From Aciditerrimonas ferrireducens (GTDB taxonomy: Bacteria > Actinomycetota > Acidimicrobiia > Acidimicrobiales > UBA8190), in contig NZ_JAKHEX010000001.1 of NCBI RefSeq assembly GCF_023130475.1, positions 1 to 64,000 of the forward strand: 64,000 bases of DNA. Reading direction: 5' to 3'. Positions 14,104 to 22,720 of this stretch are shown piece after piece. Positions within the stretch are counted from its first letter, which is position 1, and each line of letters starts with the position of its first letter. The position numbers and the translations under genes are program-made. The notes below the pieces were generated by a model. That model was not told the DNA's origin. It worked only from the letters and a program-made list of their open reading frames with translations, and made no database searches.

Positions 14104-15134
14104 GCCCCCGACCCCCGAGGCGAGCGGGGGGTCGGCCGTCTCGGCCCGGGGTCGATCGGGCGGGCGGCCCCCGGGCAGGGCGGACAGCAGGGGGCACGCC
14201 TCCTCGGCCCCCGAAGGCCGCCCACAGCCGGCGGGACGCCCCGGGCCGAGGGACGGGTGGGCGGCACCAGAGCCCGGCGAACCTCCGGCGAGGGGCCCGG
14301 GCTGTCGAGGGTCGGCCAACGCCGATCCGGTCGGCACCGGGCCGGCCGATATCGGGCCGCTCGGCATCGGGCCGGACGGAGCGGGGCCGGCAGGTGGAGG
14401 GCCGGCAGGCGGTCTTGGCGCTGCTGCAGGCGGGTCGGCGGCGGGTGCAGCGGGTCCTGCTGGCCGAGCAGCAAGAGCCGGCCCCGATCCTGGACGAGAT
14501 CGAGCGGTGGTGCCGGCAGCGGCGGGTGCCGGTGGAGCTGGTCTCGGCCGGCCGGCTGGCCCAGCTGGCCAGCACCCAGCAGCCCCAGGGGGTCCTGGCC
14601 TACGCCGAGGCGGTCCCCGAGGTGGACCTGGACGAGCTGGTGGCCGACGAGCGGGCCCTGCTGGTGGTGCTCGACGGGGTCACCGACCCGCAGAACGTGG
14701 GCTCCCTGGCCCGGAGCGCCGCGTGCCTGGGGGCGAGCGGGCTGGTCCTGCCCCGGCACCGGAGCGGCGAGCTGACCCCGAGCGTGATGAAGGTGGCGGC
14801 CGGGGGGCTGGAGCACCTGGCGGTGTGCCGGGTGCCGGGGGTGCCGGCCGCCCTGGCCCGGCTGGAGCAGCTGGGGTGCCGCACGCTGGGGCTCTCGGAG
14901 CGGGCCGACCGGTCCCTCTACGACCTCGAGGACGAGGTGCTCCAGGGGCCGGTAGCCCTGGTGCTCGGGGCCGAGGGCAGCGGCCTGCGGCGGCTCTCGG
15001 CGGCCCGCTGCCACGAGCTCGTCCGGATCCCCCTCGCCGGGAGGCTGCCGGCCCTGAACGTGGCGGTGGCCGGGGCGGTGGCCCTGGCCGAGGTGGCCCG
15101 CCGGCGAGGGACGGGGCGCCGCCCGGTGGCCTGA
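14100..15134 (+). CDS. rlmB: 23S rRNA 2'-O-methyltransferase RlmB (SpoU/TrmH family)
   Basis: Methylates a ribose 2'-OH in 23S rRNA, typically Gm2251. From about residue 97 it has the substrate-binding domain (VEGRQAVLALLQAGRRRVQ) and the knotted SPOUT domain with the three family motifs: DGVTDPQNVGSLARSA, LVLGAEGSGL, and IPLAGRLPALNVAVAGAVAL. The preceding 97 residues are Arg/Gly/Pro-rich and disordered, with repeats around GRPISGRSASGR. Similar basic extensions are known in actinobacterial TrmH proteins. GTG at 14100 forms a GTGA overlap with ispDF; a shorter start near 14388 is possible. In Mycobacterium a cysS gene stands between ispF and rlmB; it is absent here. Confidence 0.85.
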   Translation: MSPRPPRRAGGRPSRPGVDRAGGPRAGRTAGGTPPRPPKAAHSRRDAPGRGTGGRHQSPANLRRGARAVEGRPTPIRSAPGRPISGRSASGRTERGRQVEGRQAVLALLQAGRRRVQRVLLAEQQEPAPILDEIERWCRQRRVPVELVSAGRLAQLASTQQPQGVLAYAEAVPEVDLDELVADERALLVVLDGVTDPQNVGSLARSAACLGASGLVLPRHRSGELTPSVMKVAAGGLEHLAVCRVPGVPAALARLEQLGCRTLGLSERADRSLYDLEDEVLQGPVALVLGAEGSGLRRLSAARCHELVRIPLAGRLPALNVAVAGAVALAEVARRRGTGRRPVA

Positions 15135-15155
15135 ACCGCCGGGCGGCTCGCCGGG

Positions 15156-16781
15156 TCAGCTGACGGGCGTGACGGGCATGCCGGCGGGGCAGGCCCGGGG
15201 GTCGTAGGACGGGAGGGGCTCGGTGGCCGGGGTGACGTCGACCGAGGGCACCGGCTGCCCCTGGACCCCGCTCGTGGCGCTGCTGGTCCCGGTCCCGCTG
15301 GCCGAGCTGCTGGCCGCCGAGCTGCCGGTGGCGCTGGTGCTGGCGGGGGTGCCGGTGACCGAGAGGTAGGTGCCGGTGACGACCTGCAGGTCGAGGCCGC
15401 TCGGGAGGTTCCGCTCGCCCATGACGGCGTTGCCGCTCAGGTGGGGCAGGAGGGCCATGGCCTGCTTCTCGTACCCCGGGCGGTAGTAGACGATGGTTTC
15501 GGCGGGGTCGGAGGAGGCGGTGGCGTTGCCGACGTTGACGACGTGCTCGCCGAGGCTGGTGAGGGCCTGGCCGACGGCGGCGGCCTGCCCGGCGATGCCC
15601 GAGCCGTTGAGGACGCTGACGGTGGTGCCGGGGGCGATGGCCGGGGTCTTGATGTCGAAACGCTGCCAGAGGAGGGTGTAGTCGGTGGGGCTGACCGGGA
15701 AGACCACCGAGCCGTAGCCGGGGACGCCGTCGTAGGTGAAGTCGCCGGGCACCTCGAAGACCGGCTCGGTGGCGGTCGGGACGGTGGCGGGGTCGACGTT
15801 CCGGAAGGCCAGAACCAGCGAGATCATCTCGTTCAGGCCGAAGCCCGAGTCGACCTGGAGGTCAGGGGCGATGGAGCCGAGGAGGGAGTTGACCGTCAAG
15901 GGGTTGTGGAGGCGGGGCTTGACCTCGGCGGCGAGGACCTTCAAGAACTCGTGGTCCCGGTGGATCCGGGAGATGTCGCCGGTGGGGTCGTAGTACCACT
16001 GGCCGTTGACCTCGTAGTACATGTGGCGGGCCCGGACGACGGCGAGGGCCTGGAAGCCGTTGAGGAGATGGCAGCCGGGGTTCGGGATGTTGAGCCCCGA
16101 GTAGGCGTCCTTCACGGGGTCGGGGAAGTACATCTTGATGCCCCCCAGGCTGTTGACCACCCCCTGGAAGGTGTCGAAGTTGAGGCCCACGAAGTGGTTG
16201 ATGGGGATGCCGTAGTCGTCCTCGATGGTCTTCACCAGCTCGCTCGGCCCGGTGTTCAAGGCGTCGTCGACCCGGTTGGCCTTGTCGGTGCCGGGGATGG
16301 GCACGAAGGAGTCCCGGGGGATGGAGACGACCGAGGCGGTGTGGGTGGCCGGGTCGAGGTGCAGGAGCATGGTGACGTCCGAGCGGTTGCCGCCGACCTC
16401 GGAGCCGGTGCCGAAGGCGTTGGCCTGCTTGCCGTTCAGGCAGGCGCGGCAGTTCTCGCCGATGAGCAGGATGTTGACGCCCTTGGTGTCGGCCTCGGAG
16501 ACGAGGTTGCCGACCTTGTCCTTGTGGATCTGGTGGTAGCGGTAGAGGGCGTAGAGGTAGCCGCCGCCGGCGAGCAGCACGACGATGCCGACGAGGACGG
16601 TGGCCGCCACGATGGTCCGCCGGAGGCGCCGGCGACGGCGGGCCGAGCGGCGGCGGGCGGTCCGGGAGGGGGGCTGCCCGGGGCGGCCCGGAGCGGCGCG
16701 GCCCGGCATGGCGCGGCCCCGGGCGGGACGGGTGGACTGGTTGGCGTTGGGCGCGGAGAAAGGTGCGTCGGGATCCGGCAC
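15156..16781 (-). CDS. LytR-CpsA-Psr (LCP) family cell-wall glycopolymer ligase with LytR_C domain
   Basis: LCP enzymes transfer lipid-linked glycopolymers onto peptidoglycan outside the membrane. The 541-residue product has a basic cytoplasmic N-terminus, one transmembrane helix (TIVAATVLVGIVVLLAGGGYLYAL, shown in two parts: TIVAATVLVGIVV and LLAGGGYLYAL), then the LCP domain with NILLIG, RSDVTMLLHLD, SIPRDSFVPIPG, a NRVDDALNTGP segment and VRARHMYY. After it come a LytR_C domain (VSVLNGSGIAGQAAAVGQAL) and a Ser/Thr-rich tail. GTG at 16781, 11 nt after the clc stop, gives MPDPDAPF; ATG at 16709 is the alternative. Two extracellular Cys (CRAC) could form a disulphide. Confidence 0.9.
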   Translation of the reverse strand: MPDPDAPFSAPNANQSTRPARGRAMPGRAAPGRPGQPPSRTARRRSARRRRRLRRTIVAATVLVGIVVLLAGGGYLYALYRYHQIHKDKVGNLVSEADTKGVNILLIGENCRACLNGKQANAFGTGSEVGGNRSDVTMLLHLDPATHTASVVSIPRDSFVPIPGTDKANRVDDALNTGPSELVKTIEDDYGIPINHFVGLNFDTFQGVVNSLGGIKMYFPDPVKDAYSGLNIPNPGCHLLNGFQALAVVRARHMYYEVNGQWYYDPTGDISRIHRDHEFLKVLAAEVKPRLHNPLTVNSLLGSIAPDLQVDSGFGLNEMISLVLAFRNVDPATVPTATEPVFEVPGDFTYDGVPGYGSVVFPVSPTDYTLLWQRFDIKTPAIAPGTTVSVLNGSGIAGQAAAVGQALTSLGEHVVNVGNATASSDPAETIVYYRPGYEKQAMALLPHLSGNAVMGERNLPSGLDLQVVTGTYLSVTGTPASTSATGSSAASSSASGTGTSSATSGVQGQPVPSVDVTPATEPLPSYDPRACPAGMPVTPVS

Positions 16782-16792
16782 GGCCGGCCAGG

Positions 16793-19024
16793 CTACCCCC
16801 CGGGGCGGCCGTTGCCGTGGCAGGGCCCCGGGGCGCTGGCGCCCTCGGCCGACGCGGCCGGCTCGGGGCCAGGACCCCGGCCGTCCTCGGACGGCCCCGC
16901 CGGCTCCTCGGGCTCGGGCGGGTCGAGGAGGGCCTGGACCTGCTGGCGGGCCGCCTGGGGGACCAGCAGGCTGACCAGGTCGCCGGCTCGCAGGACGGTC
17001 TGGCCGTCGGGGACGACGACTTCGGGGCCGCGGCTGACGGCCACGAGGACCACGCCGGGGGGCAGGCCGGCGTCGGCGAGCCGACGGTCGCAGAGGGGCG
17101 AGTGGGGGTGGATCTCGGCATCCAGGGTGGCGGCGGCCGGCCCGGCGCTGGCAGCGCGGCGGAGGCTCTGGAGGACGACGTGGCGGGAGGCCCGGACGAG
17201 GTCGCCGGCGGTCAGGATGCCCTGGACCCGGCGGTGGCGGTCGAGGACGGGCAGCCAGCCCCGGCCGGCGTTGACCAAGGAGGCGGCGGCCAGGGCAGCC
17301 CGGGTCTCGGGGGCGGTGGTGACGGCTTGGCGGTCGCAGAGCCGGCCGACGGGGGTCTCGGGCTCGGCCTCCTCGAGCTGGGCGAGGTCGAGGACGCCGA
17401 CGAAGCGGCCCTGCTCGTCGACGACCGGGGCGCCGGGGAGGTGCTGGTCGGCGAGGGCCGCCCGTGCCTGGGTGGCGGTGGTGCTGCCGGGGAGGACCAG
17501 GCTGGGGGGCTGGAGGCAGTCGTCGACCCGCTGGGTCTCGAGCAGGGGCAGCGCGGTGGCCAGCCGGCGGGCCGGGAGGTCGTCGCGGGAGCCGAGCTGG
17601 GCGTCGATGAGGCTGAGGTCGAGCTGGCGGATGAGCAAGGTGGCGAGGCCGACGGCCAAGAGGGCTGGGGCCACGACCCCGACCGAGGAGGTCATCTCGG
17701 CGACCATGACGGTGATGGCCAGGGGCACCCGGGCGGCGGCCCCGAGGCAGCACATCATGCCGACGATGACGAAGGGGGCCGGGTCGTGGGCCAGGCCGGG
17801 GGCCAGGTGGCGCAGGAGGCGCCAGGTGGCCGCCCCGGTGAAGGCCCCGATGACCATGCCGGGGCTGAACAGGCCGCCGGAGCCGCCCGAGCCGACGGTC
17901 AAGGCGGTGGCGGCCACCTTGGCGAGGGGCATGAGGAGGACGAACCAGAGGGGCAGGGCCAGGACCCCGATGCCGAGGGCCCGCTGGGCCCAGCCGTCGC
18001 CCGCCCCGAGGACCCCCGGCATGCCGACCGCCAGGGCCCCGGTGGCCGCCGCCCCGAGGGTCGGGCCGAGGACCCGGGCGACGCGGCTCGGGCCGAGACG
18101 GGCGGCGAGGCGGCGGACCAGGGACAACGAGGCGATGTAGGCCGTGCCGAGCGCGGCGGCCAGGACCCCGATGACGGCGAACCAGAGCAGGTTGAGGGGG
18201 TGGCGGAAGACGTAGGACTGGCCGGGAAAGCCCAGGAGGGGCCCGAAGCCCTGGAAGGCCCCGAAGACGGTGTAGCCGACGATGGAGGCGATGGCCGAGG
18301 GCACGACGAGCTCCATCTCGGCGTCCTGGCGGTAGAGGATCTCGGCGGAGAGCAGGGCGCCGCCGAGGGGCGCCCGGAAGACGCAGCCGATGCCCGAGCC
18401 GAGGCCGATGGCCACCGCCACCCGGCCGTCGGTCTGGGCCAGGTCCAGCAGGCGGGTCAGCCAGGAGCCCACGGCGGCGGCCACCTGGGCGCTTGGGCCC
18501 TCGGGGCCACCGGAGCCGCCCGAGCCGATGGTGCAGGCCGAGGCGAGGATCTTGGCAGGGATGCTCCGCAGGCGAAGGGCCCGGGGGTTCTCGTGGACCG
18601 CCCGGAGGGCCTCGTCGGTGCCCGAGCCGCGGACCTCGGGGACGACCAGGCCGATGACCCCGCCCAAGAGGCCGCCGAGGCCGACCACGAGGGGCAGGGC
18701 CCAGGGGCGCACCAGGTGGAGCGAACCGGGCTGGCCCCCGTTCGCGTAGGTGCTCGGGGCGTGGTAGCCGGCCAGGGGCGCCAGGAGGTGCTGGTCGGCC
18801 ACCCCGATGGTTCGGACGAAGGCCACCACGACGAGGCCGGCCGAGGCCCCGACGATGGCCCCGAGGACCAGCCAGCGGACCACGTAGGGGGCGTCCTTCA
18901 GGGCGGCGCCCAGGGAGGCCGCAAGAGCCCGACCCCGGGGCCCGAGCTCCGAGAGGGCCGATCCGGACCCGCTGGACCGGCCGGCCCCGAGGCGGTCCTT
19001 CGGAGCTCCGGCCGGCGTGGTCAC
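16793..19024 (-). CDS. ClC-family chloride channel/transporter with CBS pair and TrkA-C domain
   Basis: A 743-residue membrane protein. The ClC core (about residues 40-460) shows the selectivity motifs GSGTDEA, GSGGPEGPSAQ, which keeps the gating glutamate, and a GIGCVFRAPLGGALLSAEILY segment. At the position of the inner proton glutamate of E. coli ClC (second E of IIEEM) the sequence reads AEI, so Ile replaces it, resembling channel-type ClCs. The cytoplasmic end carries two CBS domains (about 480-615) and a TrkA-C/RCK_C ligand domain (about 640-720), which in related proteins binds nucleotides. Ligand regulation is therefore likely. The GTG start is 6 nt after a CATACT -10 box. Confidence 0.9.
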   Translation of the reverse strand: MTTPAGAPKDRLGAGRSSGSGSALSELGPRGRALAASLGAALKDAPYVVRWLVLGAIVGASAGLVVVAFVRTIGVADQHLLAPLAGYHAPSTYANGGQPGSLHLVRPWALPLVVGLGGLLGGVIGLVVPEVRGSGTDEALRAVHENPRALRLRSIPAKILASACTIGSGGSGGPEGPSAQVAAAVGSWLTRLLDLAQTDGRVAVAIGLGSGIGCVFRAPLGGALLSAEILYRQDAEMELVVPSAIASIVGYTVFGAFQGFGPLLGFPGQSYVFRHPLNLLWFAVIGVLAAALGTAYIASLSLVRRLAARLGPSRVARVLGPTLGAAATGALAVGMPGVLGAGDGWAQRALGIGVLALPLWFVLLMPLAKVAATALTVGSGGSGGLFSPGMVIGAFTGAATWRLLRHLAPGLAHDPAPFVIVGMMCCLGAAARVPLAITVMVAEMTSSVGVVAPALLAVGLATLLIRQLDLSLIDAQLGSRDDLPARRLATALPLLETQRVDDCLQPPSLVLPGSTTATQARAALADQHLPGAPVVDEQGRFVGVLDLAQLEEAEPETPVGRLCDRQAVTTAPETRAALAAASLVNAGRGWLPVLDRHRRVQGILTAGDLVRASRHVVLQSLRRAASAGPAAATLDAEIHPHSPLCDRRLADAGLPPGVVLVAVSRGPEVVVPDGQTVLRAGDLVSLLVPQAARQQVQALLDPPEPEEPAGPSEDGRGPGPEPAASAEGASAPGPCHGNGRPGG

Positions 19025-19030
19025 CCACGC

Positions 19031-19036
19031 AGTATG
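19031..19036 (-). promoter_or_regulatory. Leaderless-type -10 box of the clc gene
   Basis: CATACT on the minus strand, 6 nt from the GTG start. Confidence 0.5.
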
Positions 19037-19091
19037 GTCCCCGCTTTCCGGCTCCTGCTCCGCCGTTCAGGGCGAGGGGCCCGCTGTTGGC

Positions 19092-19097
19092 TAGGGT
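19092..19097 (+). promoter_or_regulatory. Leaderless-type -10 box of the LLM oxidoreductase gene
   Basis: TAGGGT, 6 nt, then GTG at 19104. Confidence 0.55.
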
Positions 19098-19103
19098 CGG
19101 CCT

Positions 19104-19997
19104 GTGCGGTTCAGCGTGTGGCCCACGACGGGCCAGTCCTGGGAGGACCTGCTGGCCTGCGCCCAGGACGCCGAGGAGCTCGGCTACCAGGGGGTCTGGG
19201 TGGCGGACCACTTCATGCCGGCGGGCGGGGACCTGGCGCGCCCGACCCTGGAGTGCTGGGCGGTCCTGGCCGGCCTGGCCGTGGCCGTGCCCCGAGTCCG
19301 GCTGGGGTCGCTGGTCTGCTCGGTCACCTACCGGCACCCGGCTGTGCTGGCCAACCAGGCAGCCAGCGTGGACCAGCTGAGCGGCGGCCGGCTGGTGCTG
19401 GGGATCGGGGCCGGCTGGCAGGAGAACGAGCACCGGGCCTACGGGATCGACTTCCCCGACGCCCGAGAGCGCCTGGACCGTCTGGAGGAGGCCTGCCAGG
19501 TGCTGCGGCTCCTCGCGGACCAACCCCGGGCCGACTTCCGCGGTCGGCACTACCGGCTGGTGGACGCCCCGTCGGAACCCAAGCCCCGCCAGGCCCACCT
19601 GCCGCTGCTGGTCGGGGGCGGCGGGGAACGCCGGACGCTTCGCATCGTGGCCCGATGGGCCGACGAGTGGAACACCTGGGGCACCCCCGAGGTCCTGGCT
19701 GCGAAGGGGGCGGTGCTGGACGCCCACTGCGAGGCCGTCGGGCGGGACCCGGCGAGCATCCGGCGCAGCGCCCAGGTGCTCGTGGACCTCGGGGGCCGCT
19801 CCCCGAGCGACGGCCGCATGCCGACGGTGACGGGCTCGGCGAGCGAGCTCCAGGACCTCCTGGCCGGGTACCAGGCGGCGGGGGTGGGGGAGTTCGTCCT
19901 GCCCGACTGGAACCTCGGTCGGGGTAGTCGCCGGCGGGACGCCCTGGCCGAGTTCTTCGAGGAGGTGGCCCGGCCCTTCGCCGACCGGGCCGGCTGA
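19104..19997 (+). CDS. LLM-class (F420-type) flavin-dependent oxidoreductase
   Basis: A 297-residue luciferase-like TIM barrel. The start MRFSVWPTTGQSWEDLLACA, the VWVADHF strand, VRLGSLVCSVTYRHPAVLANQAA and GRLVLGIGAGWQENEHRAYG are typical of the actinobacterial subfamily that uses coenzyme F420 rather than FMN. The substrate is unknown; related proteins reduce or oxidise small organic molecules. It stands alone, divergent from the clc gene, so context gives no further hint. Confidence 0.85.
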   Translation: MRFSVWPTTGQSWEDLLACAQDAEELGYQGVWVADHFMPAGGDLARPTLECWAVLAGLAVAVPRVRLGSLVCSVTYRHPAVLANQAASVDQLSGGRLVLGIGAGWQENEHRAYGIDFPDARERLDRLEEACQVLRLLADQPRADFRGRHYRLVDAPSEPKPRQAHLPLLVGGGGERRTLRIVARWADEWNTWGTPEVLAAKGAVLDAHCEAVGRDPASIRRSAQVLVDLGGRSPSDGRMPTVTGSASELQDLLAGYQAAGVGEFVLPDWNLGRGSRRRDALAEFFEEVARPFADRAG

Positions 19998-20020
19998 CGC
20001 CGAGGGGACCTCGGGTCGGC

Positions 20021-20410
20021 TCAGCCGACGAAGGAGTCGATGGCCTTGACGAGCTTGTCCTCGACCTCGAGGTTCCAGGCGCTCTCGGCCACGTCGACCA
20101 CGAGGAAGAGGTTGGAGATCAAGAGGGTCTCCACCGCGGCCACCGCCAGGTGCTCGAGCCACTTGCCCACGCCGATCCGCACGGTGAAGTCGGCCGGGCT
20201 GCCGCTCAGCATGGTGGTCATGGCTCGGTCGGCGTCCACCACCCCCCGGAGGAAGCCGCCCTTCTTGGCCTGGATGACCACCCCGTGGTCGCTGGGCTTC
20301 GAGCTCTGGACGGTGAACCCGTCGTTCTTCAAGTAGGACTCGATCTGGGACTGCAGGTTGCCCAGGTCGGTGCCCTTGCCTTGGAAGTGCAGCACCTTCT
20401 CGCCCACCAT
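20021..20410 (-). CDS. Conserved-looking protein of unknown function (129 aa)
   Basis: I do not recognise the family with confidence. The ATG is well supported by AAGGAGAG about 6 nt upstream. The N-terminal half (MVGEKVLHFQGKG, then LQSQIESYLKNDGFTVQSS, and VVIQAKKGGFLRGVV) alternates short strands and helices. The middle (TMLSGSPADFTVRIGVGKW) looks like a beta hairpin. The C-terminus has a hydrophobic segment (VAAVETLLISNLFLVVDVAE) that could be membrane-associated or a buried helix, followed by a charged helix. No signal peptide and no Cys. It converges on the LLM gene 23 nt away. Confidence 0.75.
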   Translation of the reverse strand: MVGEKVLHFQGKGTDLGNLQSQIESYLKNDGFTVQSSKPSDHGVVIQAKKGGFLRGVVDADRAMTTMLSGSPADFTVRIGVGKWLEHLAVAAVETLLISNLFLVVDVAESAWNLEVEDKLVKAIDSFVG

Positions 20411-20642
20411 GAGGCTCTCCTTCCCTGAGCCGCGGGCCACCCCCGCGGTGCGCGGGGTGGCGCGTGGCCGGTCCCGCCCGATGAGCACCCTAGGCCCCGG
20501 CCGGGGTCCAGGTCCGGTCACCCCTGCGGCGACGGGCTGGGGGCCTGCGGCCGCCCTTGTCCGAGGGACAGGCTGGAGGCACCATGCCGGGGAGCGGCCC
20601 CGGAGGGTCCCTGCTGGCGGGGCTTCTCGGGGAGGGAGGGGT

Positions 20643-21443
20643 ATGCGCCGACGAACTGGCTTCCTCTGGGTGGGCCTCGGGGGCGTGGCCCTCCTCCTCG
20701 CTGCCTGCGTGACGACGTCGTCCGCCGGCACGACCTCGACGGCGGCCCGCAGCCGATCGGTCGGTGCGGGAAGTGCTGCCGCGAGCTCGTCGGCTGGCGC
20801 GACGAGCAGCATGCCGGCGAGTACCGGCCCGCAGAGCGCGAGCCCGGAGCCGCCGGGGAGTACGAGTCCAGCACCGGCGAGCAGCGCGAGCGCGTCGGGC
20901 ACCGTGGTGCACTCGGTTCTGACCCTCTTCACCACCGGTGGGCAGGTGGCGCCGGGCGTCACCGTGACGAACCATGCGGTGGCGCAGGAGTGCCTGACCG
21001 ACGGGGTGGCCGGCGGAGACTCCTACCGGTGCTTCACCGGCCGGGTCAGTCCCGGAGGGCCGTCCTTCGTGTTCGATCCCTGCTTCGCCGCCCCCGGCCC
21101 GGGCTCCCCGCGGGTGCTCCTGTGCCCGACGAACCCCGTGCGGGACACGGCGATCGAGCTCGAGGCGTCGACCCTGCCGCCACCGACGGCGGAGCCCGCC
21201 CGGGTGTGGGCGATGGAGCTGGCCGACCAGCAGGCCTGCGTCTTCGTGAACGCCGCCTGGGGCGGCCTCGGCCCCTTCAGCTGTTCGCCCCCACCATCGG
21301 CCGCCTCGGGTGGGAGCGGCACGACCGTCGCCGACTGCCACCCGCCGGAAGGTGGCATCCCCTGGTGGCAGGCCGACTGCCAGGCCCAGGAGCAGGAGGG
21401 CAGCCCGTTCTCGGCCGTGCGGGTGCTGAGCGTGTGGGGCTGA
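20643..21443 (+). CDS. Putative lipoprotein, Cys-rich, unknown function
   Basis: The 266-residue product has a basic N-terminus, a hydrophobic stretch FLWVGLGGVALLLAAC and a lipobox LAAC with Cys at about position 22, so it should be lipidated and held at the outer face of the membrane. A Ser/Thr/Ala/Pro-rich spacer of about 70 residues follows, then a compact domain with about eight Cys residues (including QECL, YRCF, DPCF, LLCP, QACV, FSCS, DCHP and ADCQ), probably disulphide-bonded. No catalytic motif was seen. A GGGAGGGAGGGG ribosome site precedes the ATG. No partner gene is obvious. Confidence 0.75.
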   Translation: MRRRTGFLWVGLGGVALLLAACVTTSSAGTTSTAARSRSVGAGSAAASSSAGATSSMPASTGPQSASPEPPGSTSPAPASSASASGTVVHSVLTLFTTGGQVAPGVTVTNHAVAQECLTDGVAGGDSYRCFTGRVSPGGPSFVFDPCFAAPGPGSPRVLLCPTNPVRDTAIELEASTLPPPTAEPARVWAMELADQQACVFVNAAWGGLGPFSCSPPPSAASGGSGTTVADCHPPEGGIPWWQADCQAQEQEGSPFSAVRVLSVWG

Positions 21444-21687
21444 GACCGGCCACGGCGGGCGTCCCTCGGATGGTGGGAAAACGACATCGAAGAGCGGGTC
21501 GCACCGGCGGCCCGGGCCCGTCTTCGCTCCACCGGCACGCTCGCCCCTTGAACGGGGGTGGCAGACCGGGTCCAGTTTCGGGCAAGGTCGCATCCGACAC
21601 CCATTGCGGTGCGGGCGGAGCGCGCCTCGCCTCGTGTTGCATGCTCGGGTCGGCTGGTCCACGACCGCAGAGGCATCGACGATCCGC

Positions 21688-21693
21688 TATCGT
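21688..21693 (+). promoter_or_regulatory. Leaderless-type -10 box of the HEPN-MNT operon
   Basis: TATCGT, 6 nt, then GTG at 21700. No ribosome site is present between them. Confidence 0.5.
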
Positions 21694-21699
21694 CTTGGT

Positions 21700-22209
21700 G
21701 TGGTGCGTGCTGGGGGGTTGGTGAGGGAGGCCCGCCGGCGTGCCGGGTTGTCCCAGGCGGAGCTGGGCCGTCGTGCCGGGGTGGCCCAGAGCGTGGTCAG
21801 CGCGTACGAGTCCGGCGCGCGCCAGCCGTCGGTGCCGATGCTGGCTCGTCTGGTTGCCGCCGCCGGCTTCGAGCTGGACCTGGGGCTGTCCGAAGCGGCA
21901 ACGGCCCGAGCGCCCCTCGGCGAGCTTGCGGAGCGGGTCCGGGATCGGCGCGTCGAGCTGCAGGGGATCCTGGCCCGCTATGGGCTGGGCAACCCCCGTC
22001 TGTTCGGGAGCGTGGCCCGCGGTGAGGAGGGCCCGGGGAGCGACGTGGATCTTCTCGTCGAGGTGCCCGAAGGGGTAGGCCTGGTGACCCTCGCACGCTG
22101 CCAGGCGGAGCTCGAGCAGCTGCTCGGTGCCCGGGTCGACCTGGTGCCCGCTGGCGACCTCAAGGCGGCGGTGGCTGCTGAGGTGCTCGGCGAGGCCGTG
22201 CCGCTTTGA
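21700..22209 (+). CDS. MNT-type nucleotidyltransferase antitoxin with N-terminal XRE DNA-binding domain
   Basis: A 169-residue fusion. Residues 5-62 form a helix-turn-helix of the XRE type (REARRRAGLSQAELGRRAGV, then SVVSAYESGARQPS). Residues about 80-165 are a minimal nucleotidyltransferase with the signature GSVARGEEGPGSDVD, that is G103-S104-x10-D115-x-D117, all metal residues intact. In characterised HEPN-MNT pairs the MNT protein AMPylates a tyrosine of the HEPN toxin and so neutralises it. The fused DNA-binding domain suggests that this antitoxin also represses its own operon. The start could be GTG 21700 or 21703. The stop overlaps the toxin start (TTGA). Confidence 0.85.
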   Translation: MVRAGGLVREARRRAGLSQAELGRRAGVAQSVVSAYESGARQPSVPMLARLVAAAGFELDLGLSEAATARAPLGELAERVRDRRVELQGILARYGLGNPRLFGSVARGEEGPGSDVDLLVEVPEGVGLVTLARCQAELEQLLGARVDLVPAGDLKAAVAAEVLGEAVPL

Positions 22210-22538
22210 GCCGCCGGGACCGTCAACGCCTCGAGGACATCGTGGTCGCCATCGACGCCATCCGCTCCCATCTCGAGCGCGGCGACCTGCACGACGGGCT
22301 CGTCTTCGACGCGGTGCGCGTCCGGCTCATTGAGGTCGGCGAAGCGGTCAAGGCCCTCTCCCAGGAGCTGCTCGCCCATGAGCCCACTCTCCCCTGGGCG
22401 CAGATCGCCGGGATGCGGGACCGTCTCGCTCACCGCTACTTCGACGCCTCGCACGCCATCGTTGCCGCCACGGTGGACGAGGATCTCCCCGAGCTCGAGG
22501 CGGCGGTGCGCCGGCTCCTCCGGATCGTGGACGACTGA
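22206..22538 (+). CDS. HEPN-domain ribonuclease toxin (HepT-like, DUF86)
   Basis: A 110-residue all-helical protein with the HEPN RNase motif RDRLAHRY, in which R71, H76 and Y78 form R-x4-H-x-Y. Arg and His are the catalytic pair, and the Tyr is the residue AMPylated by MntA-type antitoxins in characterised systems. Translation starts at TTG inside the antitoxin stop, a low-efficiency start that would keep the toxin level below the antitoxin. The pair lies 109 nt from tRNA-Thr, a typical place for mobile defence genes, though no integrase or att repeat is visible. Confidence 0.85.
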   Translation: MSRRDRQRLEDIVVAIDAIRSHLERGDLHDGLVFDAVRVRLIEVGEAVKALSQELLAHEPTLPWAQIAGMRDRLAHRYFDASHAIVAATVDEDLPELEAAVRRLLRIVDD

Positions 22539-22647
22539 CAGAACCGGGTCAGCCGGGACACAGGACCAGCGGACTGCGGTTCCAGGCTCACGACGACCCG
22601 AGTGGACGCCTCAGGGATAGCCCGGCCCTCGGACTCGCGAGTTTCCG

Positions 22648-22720
22648 AGCCGGTGGTGGGACTCGAACCCACGACCTGACGATTACAAGTCGCCTGCGCT
22701 ACCAGCTGCGCCACACCGGC
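22648..22720 (-). tRNA. tRNA-Thr (anticodon TGT)
   Basis: Minus strand reads GCCGGTG...CACCGGC acceptor arms, D-arm GCGC..GCGC, anticodon stem GGCGA/TCGTC with loop CTTGTAA, and T-arm GTGGG TTCGAGT CCCAC. The CCA end is not encoded. A small inverted repeat (CTCGGA/TCCGAG, 22628-22649) directly downstream may end transcription. Confidence 0.95.

Follow-up and report, generated by a model that had tools for sequence, protein, structure and literature searches.

A two-gene module beside a tRNA-Thr gene raises the question of whether a single antitoxin might both modify its partner toxin and repress the operon that encodes the pair. The module lies in the 64,000-nucleotide stretch of DNA analyzed here, referred to hereafter as the window. 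The preliminary description had read it as a HEPN-MNT pair in which the minimal nucleotidyltransferase (MNT) protein keeps a GSx10DxD motif and carries an N-terminal XRE domain, and in which the HEPN protein keeps R-x4-H-x-Y and starts at a TTG within the antitoxin stop, with tRNA-Thr adjoining. All of these elements were recovered, at the following positions.

21700-22209, plus strand: XRE-MNT fusion antitoxin, 169 aa, GTG start and TGA stop (reading frames, Pfam, model)
21721-21879, plus strand: XRE/HTH_3 DNA-binding domain, fusion residues 8-60 (Pfam HTH_3, E 5.5e-13, above the curated cut-off)
21922-22206, plus strand: MNT domain, following a low-confidence linker, with structural matches 1wot, 8xeo and 7bxo
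22006-22050, plus strand: GSx10DxD catalytic motif of the fusion, here GSVARGEEGPGSDVD
22206-22538, plus strand: HepT-type HEPN toxin, 110 aa, TTG start (Pfam HepT-like PF01934, E 2.5e-18, above the curated cut-off)
22416-22439, plus strand: R-x4-H-x-Y motif of HepT, here RDRLAHRY, with the predicted RNase site and the predicted AMP-acceptor Tyr78
22647-22720, minus strand: tRNA-Thr (TGT), 3' end toward the module, 108 bp beyond HepT

Architecture of the module

The protein that matched HTH_3 also matched Pfam NTP_transf_2 (PF01909) over residues 100-156 (E 2.1e-12, above the curated cut-off). A second GTG follows at 21703. The TTG of hepT overlaps the TGA of the antitoxin gene as TTGA at 22206. 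In the host genome (2.65 Mb, 43 contigs, 85% complete) there was one match to PF01934 and two to PF01909. The scores fell below the NCBIfam equivalog thresholds (NF047752 MntA, 40.1 of 60 bits; NF047751 HepT, 26.7 of 60 bits); these are naming cut-offs, so the NCBI equivalog names were not applied to the fusion or to HepT. PADLOC matched the MNT half of the fusion to PDC-S09 and gave no match for HepT.

Among PDB entries, the HepT model (pLDDT 91.9) was closest to 5yep_C, the Shewanella HepT structure (Foldseek probability 1.00, E 0.06), and the AMPylated HEPN toxins 7ae6 and 7ae9 ranked third and fourth. The fusion was modeled with a pLDDT of 91.8 and a pTM of 0.55, the linker block falling to a pLDDT of 62. 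Its MNT half resembled the three structures listed above and its other half resembled XRE repressors including HipB(Lp), with each of the best matches confined to a single half. A flexible linker between two domains would account for the low pTM. The models of HepT and MNT match the folds of solved HepT and MntA.

Conservation and distribution of the fusion

Relatives were collected in two ways, by searching the proteins of 60 related genomes and by scanning genome contigs once. Together these gave 47 non-redundant matches spanning most of both fusion domains, including a few from one genome or from near-identical contigs (three places in L078; L088 and L090, for example). When 396 genomes were drawn evenly from the phylum, 16 had a strong match. 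The reading frame of one of these (L183) shows it to be a stand-alone MNT; the 15 fusions that remain indicate a patchy distribution. The contig of L090, labeled Acidobacteria, is 99% identical to that of L088 from an Actinomycetes bin. That label is therefore doubtful and we claim no transfer between phyla from it.

In alignments picked from loci with an unbroken frame, the Gly, the Ser and the three Asp of the MNT site (the third in V-D) were invariant in 23 of 23 fusions, and R71, H76 and Y78 in 24 of 24 HepTs. The residues of the recognition helix of the XRE domain, which lie in QSVVSAYE, were likewise invariant in the aligned fusions. Four comparisons with relatives gave dN/dS values of 0.19-0.27 for the fusion, and four gave 0.13-0.21 for HepT. 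A chance overlap of open reading frames was ruled out by this conservation and these ratios.

A tree of 76 MNT domains was built after four truncated rows and rows of fewer than 60 residues had been dropped, the labels being assigned by regular expression and, for 11, by hand. One group held 46 rows (45 fused and one with another HTH) with an SH-aLRT of 96. The fused state needs five changes on the tree, so that a single origin of all fusions is not established.

Three copies of the fusion, partly decayed, lie about 5.1 kb apart on one contig (L078; G024:C109 36159, 41279 and 46382), and between them are frames that, by reading alone, were named reverse-transcriptase-like and transposase-like.

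A predicted operator and promoter in front of the fusion

The region upstream of the fusion contains two predicted regulatory elements.

21674-21691, plus strand: predicted XRE operator CATCGACGATCCGCTATC (family consensus TATCKACRATNCGCTAT, at 21674-21690), an imperfect dyad conserved in fusion loci
21688-21693, plus strand: predicted -10 element TATCGT, lying under the operator and 6 nt upstream of the GTG at 21700

The pattern TATCKACNATNCGCTAT occurred with at most two mismatches upstream of 33 of the 47 fusion matches, compared to 0.03% of 9,400 shuffled regions. Since these loci had themselves supplied the pattern, it was put to two additional tests. For the first, a matrix was built from 12 training sites, taken from fusions of at least 70% identity with the window's own among them, and its threshold was set at the 99.9th percentile of scores from 3,500 shuffles. 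Of the 35 fusions held out, 22 exceeded this threshold, compared to none of 23 stand-alone MNT controls; the best site of the matrix in the window scored 30.2 bits at 21674 and the next 6.5. Among the 13 held-out loci in which the matrix failed, L088, L090 and L094 carry a variant site, CATAGACAATACGTACTA, and L014 a near form; they form a variant-operator clade in which L013 and L091 may also be counted. The other failures include distant or single loci (L085, L093, L013, L091, L095, L060, L059, L018 and L107).

A search for TATNNACRATNCGMTATNNT, whose letter M was permitted after L021 had been seen, found eight sites in 198 genomes of the order and none with the pattern read backwards. Five lay ahead of XRE-MNT and HepT modules, two ahead of separate XRE and nucleotidyltransferase pairs and one in an unrelated gene; three were absent from the earlier loci, namely the fusion module L187, the XRE/AbiEii-like pair L190 and the unrelated gene at L188. 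An exact, stricter pattern had three matches in the 396 genomes of the phylum, two at modules and one inside a PIN-like gene. The host genome contains exactly one site at two or fewer mismatches, ahead of the module, and no second one at that stringency.

Upstream conservation was confined to the operator motif and one T, the last base of TATNNT. When operator and helix were viewed by eye for covariation, the recognition helix was nearly invariant across the fusions. Two or three tandem operator-like copies precede the fusion at L083, L076, L012 and L085, as in multi-site XRE repressors.

Operators like those of the fusions, at the same place, also precede separate XRE genes that are followed by genes of nucleotidyltransferase type (L186 in G026, L190 in G458, L021, L026 and L020); the partners in L021 and L026 matched PF08843 AbiEii above the cut-off. 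The XRE domain and its operator thus look like a shared cassette.

In 40 of 41 fusion loci an in-frame start was preceded, at a distance of 5-8 nt, by a TANNNT element, against a null of 4.4%, several of these loci being scored on an upstream TACGAT with a different start and not on TATNNT. TANNNT about 12 bp upstream has been described as a mark of leaderless genes (PMC3160421), and in M. tuberculosis 32 of the 37 toxin-antitoxin pairs with a primary start are leaderless (PMC3898074). A sigma-70 scan returned neither a promoter with a -35 element nor a terminator, and the promoter call comes solely from the TANNNT argument. The promoter of the module is probably leaderless, with its start at the GTG at 21700, and a repressor bound at the predicted operator would cover the -10.

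The preliminary description had suggested that the fusion joins AMPylation and repression in one protein. The repression half gained from these comparisons, in which the operator accompanies the fusion at loci that have diverged and overlaps the predicted -10; that the XRE domain would repress via this operator is well supported at the level of sequence.

Loss of HepT and retention of the fusion

An automatic tally of 46 loci scored the fusion as broken in two; in those with the fusion open, HepT was intact in 31, broken in eight, missing in four and cut by the contig end in one. By eye, HepT of L070 proved to be frameshifted through the motif, and the HEPN frames of L181 and L178 were intact but diverged. 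The corrected tally for 43 loci was 32 intact, seven broken and four absent. A broken HepT beside an open fusion was found at seven loci and the reverse, an intact HepT beside a broken fusion, at none, in a set of loci found via the fusion and including metagenome bins, which carry indels. This asymmetry fits a toxin whose loss is tolerated.

Several loci depart from the usual arrangement. At L014/L045, HepT is broken after its N-terminal half and the frame continues into unrelated insertion-element-like sequence, with the fusion open. Orphan XRE-MNT fusions with no recognizable HepT were seen at L081, L092/L177 and L175. At L093/L174 the active-site His of the HEPN-like partner downstream of the fusion is replaced, giving R-x4-Y-x-Y. 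The mobilizable Mycobacterium avium plasmid pS2b encodes an XRE-MNT protein (L184; NZ_CP076860.1, 93338-93871) with no HepT annotated in the adjacent stretch. This protein, annotated only as 'helix-turn-helix domain-containing protein', was the sole fusion record in the plasmid search; HepT alone matched 13 plasmid records, all at less than 60% identity. Four phage records were found in the search for the fusion, none covering 80% of it, and none of six loci on viral contigs was a full fusion.

The orphans and the loci that keep an open fusion beside a broken HepT lend some weight to the idea of a domesticated regulator, in which XRE-MNT would now act mainly as a transcription factor, with the MNT domain as a nucleotide sensor and HepT as either a relic or a co-repressor. 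We consider this unlikely. Both active sites are intact in the window and in most relatives, purifying selection on HepT is at least as strong as on the fusion, and the only genomic operator site found at two or fewer mismatches fronts the module itself.

Proposed mechanism

The reading that we favor, with a probability of about 0.8, is that of a class I HEPN/MNT (type VII) operon whose antitoxin has acquired an added XRE domain of the Cro/HipB-like kind, such that the MNT domain would adenylylate HepT and the XRE domain would repress its own promoter. It is built on observations made by computation: the architecture, the conserved catalytic residues, purifying selection, the operator and its position, and decay of the toxin with the antitoxin kept.

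From what is known of its family, HepT is predicted to be an RNase. The MNT domain would adenylylate HepT at Tyr78, beside the active His, and so disarm it; we infer this from the invariance of the catalytic residues and by analogy with MntA/HepT pairs that have been tested, in which MntA adenylylates Tyr104 of HepT (PMC7641770). The XRE domain, probably as a dimer, would bind the 18-bp operator on the -10 of the leaderless promoter and repress both genes. Translation of HepT may be coupled to that of the antitoxin through the TTGA overlap. Loss of the fusion protein would then both unmask HepT and open the promoter.

HEPN-MNT pairs were earlier classed as type II on the basis of complex formation (PMC4621449), and HipBA is known to form tight complexes on DNA (PMC3920265). 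The fusion might accordingly neutralize HepT by tight binding while repressing the operon, with AMPylation minor and the MNT domain a binding platform. We give this account little credence: the five invariant residues of the MNT site would be superfluous for binding alone, and mutation of the motif lowered neutralization in Shewanella (PMC7641770). That an XRE gene was joined to a neighboring MNT gene by annotation error or frameshift is hardly credible, as the same architecture, a fixed range of linker and a near-fixed HepT offset recur in dozens of loci, and we found no point in its favor.

Genomic setting and mobility

The module lies within a longer segment.

15041-22646, no strand assigned: block absent at the same site in relatives, between a conserved operon (end about 15041) and tRNA-Thr, holding the module and other genes

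The position of tRNA-Thr near otsB is kept in ten related genomes, and the module is absent from the tRNA-Thr/otsB stretch examined in all ten. Among the matches listed, the operon to the left of the tRNA in relatives with enough flank corresponds to 9.5-15.04 kb of the window, and in L163 and L166 it ends 27-45 bp from the tRNA. About 7.6 kb is therefore extra in the window between operon and tRNA.

The preliminary description had suggested that the module may be mobile. The relatives support this. In L084 (Modestobacter lapidis, tRNA-Arg) and L056 (tRNA-Ile), two of the 36 loci with enough flank, the module has a tRNA on one side and, on the other, a partial copy of the 3' half of that tRNA. 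The copies aligned with scores of 71 and 53, where shuffles reached no more than 32 and 26, respectively. The distribution is also patchy, as noted above. The L056 unit is 1130 bp and contains the operator, the two module genes and nothing else. A 1169-bp stretch that ends at a tRNA-Val is common to L090 and L094 (79% identity). Genes for tRNAs of other kinds occurred within 500 bp after HepT in four of 38 relatives' loci (expected 0.27-0.60; Poisson 2e-4 to 3e-3), an enrichment that was noticed post hoc and includes the homologous L090 and L094. For the copy in the window, three search approaches found no copy of the tRNA 3' end and no att repeat on the far side; the hints of mobility there are the tRNA neighborhood and the block missing from relatives. 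No integrase was recognized, by reading alone, among the window ORFs listed for 19-26 kb, and the L056 unit is filled by the module.

We tentatively suggest, as an idea more doubtful than the mechanism above, that the module is a mobile unit pared down to operator, XRE-MNT and HepT (about 1.1-1.5 kb), which would recombine at tRNA 3' halves with an integrase acting in trans. The XRE domain and operator would form an exchangeable cassette common to XRE/AbiEii systems, so that toxin-antitoxin systems of different kinds might regulate one another within a cell, and the state of the repressor might report binding or AMPylation of HepT.

Comparison with known systems

The closest comparison is with the class I HEPN/MNT pair SO_3166/SO_3165 of Shewanella oneidensis, which is likewise a PF01934 and PF01909 pair with the MNT gene first, overlapping genes, the motifs RX4HXY and GSX10DXD, and the same folds. 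SO_3165 has no predicted DNA-binding domain, whereas the fusion has an XRE domain, a conserved operator and a predicted leaderless promoter. SO_3165 shifts its own promoter, and its deletion raises promoter activity only 1.6-fold (PMC4621449). The MNT proteins of PMC7641770, where a Bifidobacterium merycicum pair was among those tested, have a single domain and fewer than 150 aa, in contrast to 169 aa with an N-terminal XRE domain here. In PMC2701414, PMC3710099, PMC7641770, PMC11586414 and PMC4621449, MNT antitoxins are described without a DNA-binding domain. A HEPN-RHH fusion was reported by Makarova 2009, and the Xress-MNTss pair of Streptococcus suis consists of two separate proteins (PMC8406773). 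Among open-licence publications we found no description of an XRE-MNT fusion or of such an operator.

HipB, the XRE antitoxin and repressor of hipBA, shares the XRE domain, and its consensus operator TATCC-N8-GGATA (PMC3376134, PMC3920265) has the same 5-N8-5 spacing as the predicted operator of the fusion with different arms. Only five of eight position pairs match in the dyad of the latter (hand count), so the likeness is just a lead. The partner of HipB is the HipA kinase; here the partner is HepT-like, the XRE domain is fused to an enzyme, and the HTH scored 38.9 against the couple_hipB cut-off of 71.65.

The XRE and AbiEii-type pairs at L186 and L190 have a related XRE domain and a very similar operator over the -10. 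They differ in encoding the XRE protein apart from the nucleotidyltransferase, which is presumed to be the toxin, whereas the partner in the window is PF01934. The closest solved MNT domain is 1wot (58 bits, 46% identity in the fold match), which we take to be an MNT protein from Thermus; it is stand-alone, with 98 residues and no HTH, unlike the fusion.

By its defining motifs, then, the module is a HEPN/MNT member, and on present comparisons it is new in architecture and predicted regulation, the candidate operator of XRE-MNT modules being a new element here. PMC7641770 names HEPN/MNT as the most abundant toxin-antitoxin pair. The tRNA-bounded copies suggest a route of spread for such small modules, and an operator shared with some XRE/AbiEii pairs predicts cross-talk with a different kind of toxin-antitoxin system. 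With the predicted regulator and adenylyltransferase in one protein, and its candidate operator in hand, how toxin modification is linked to transcription can be tested domain by domain.
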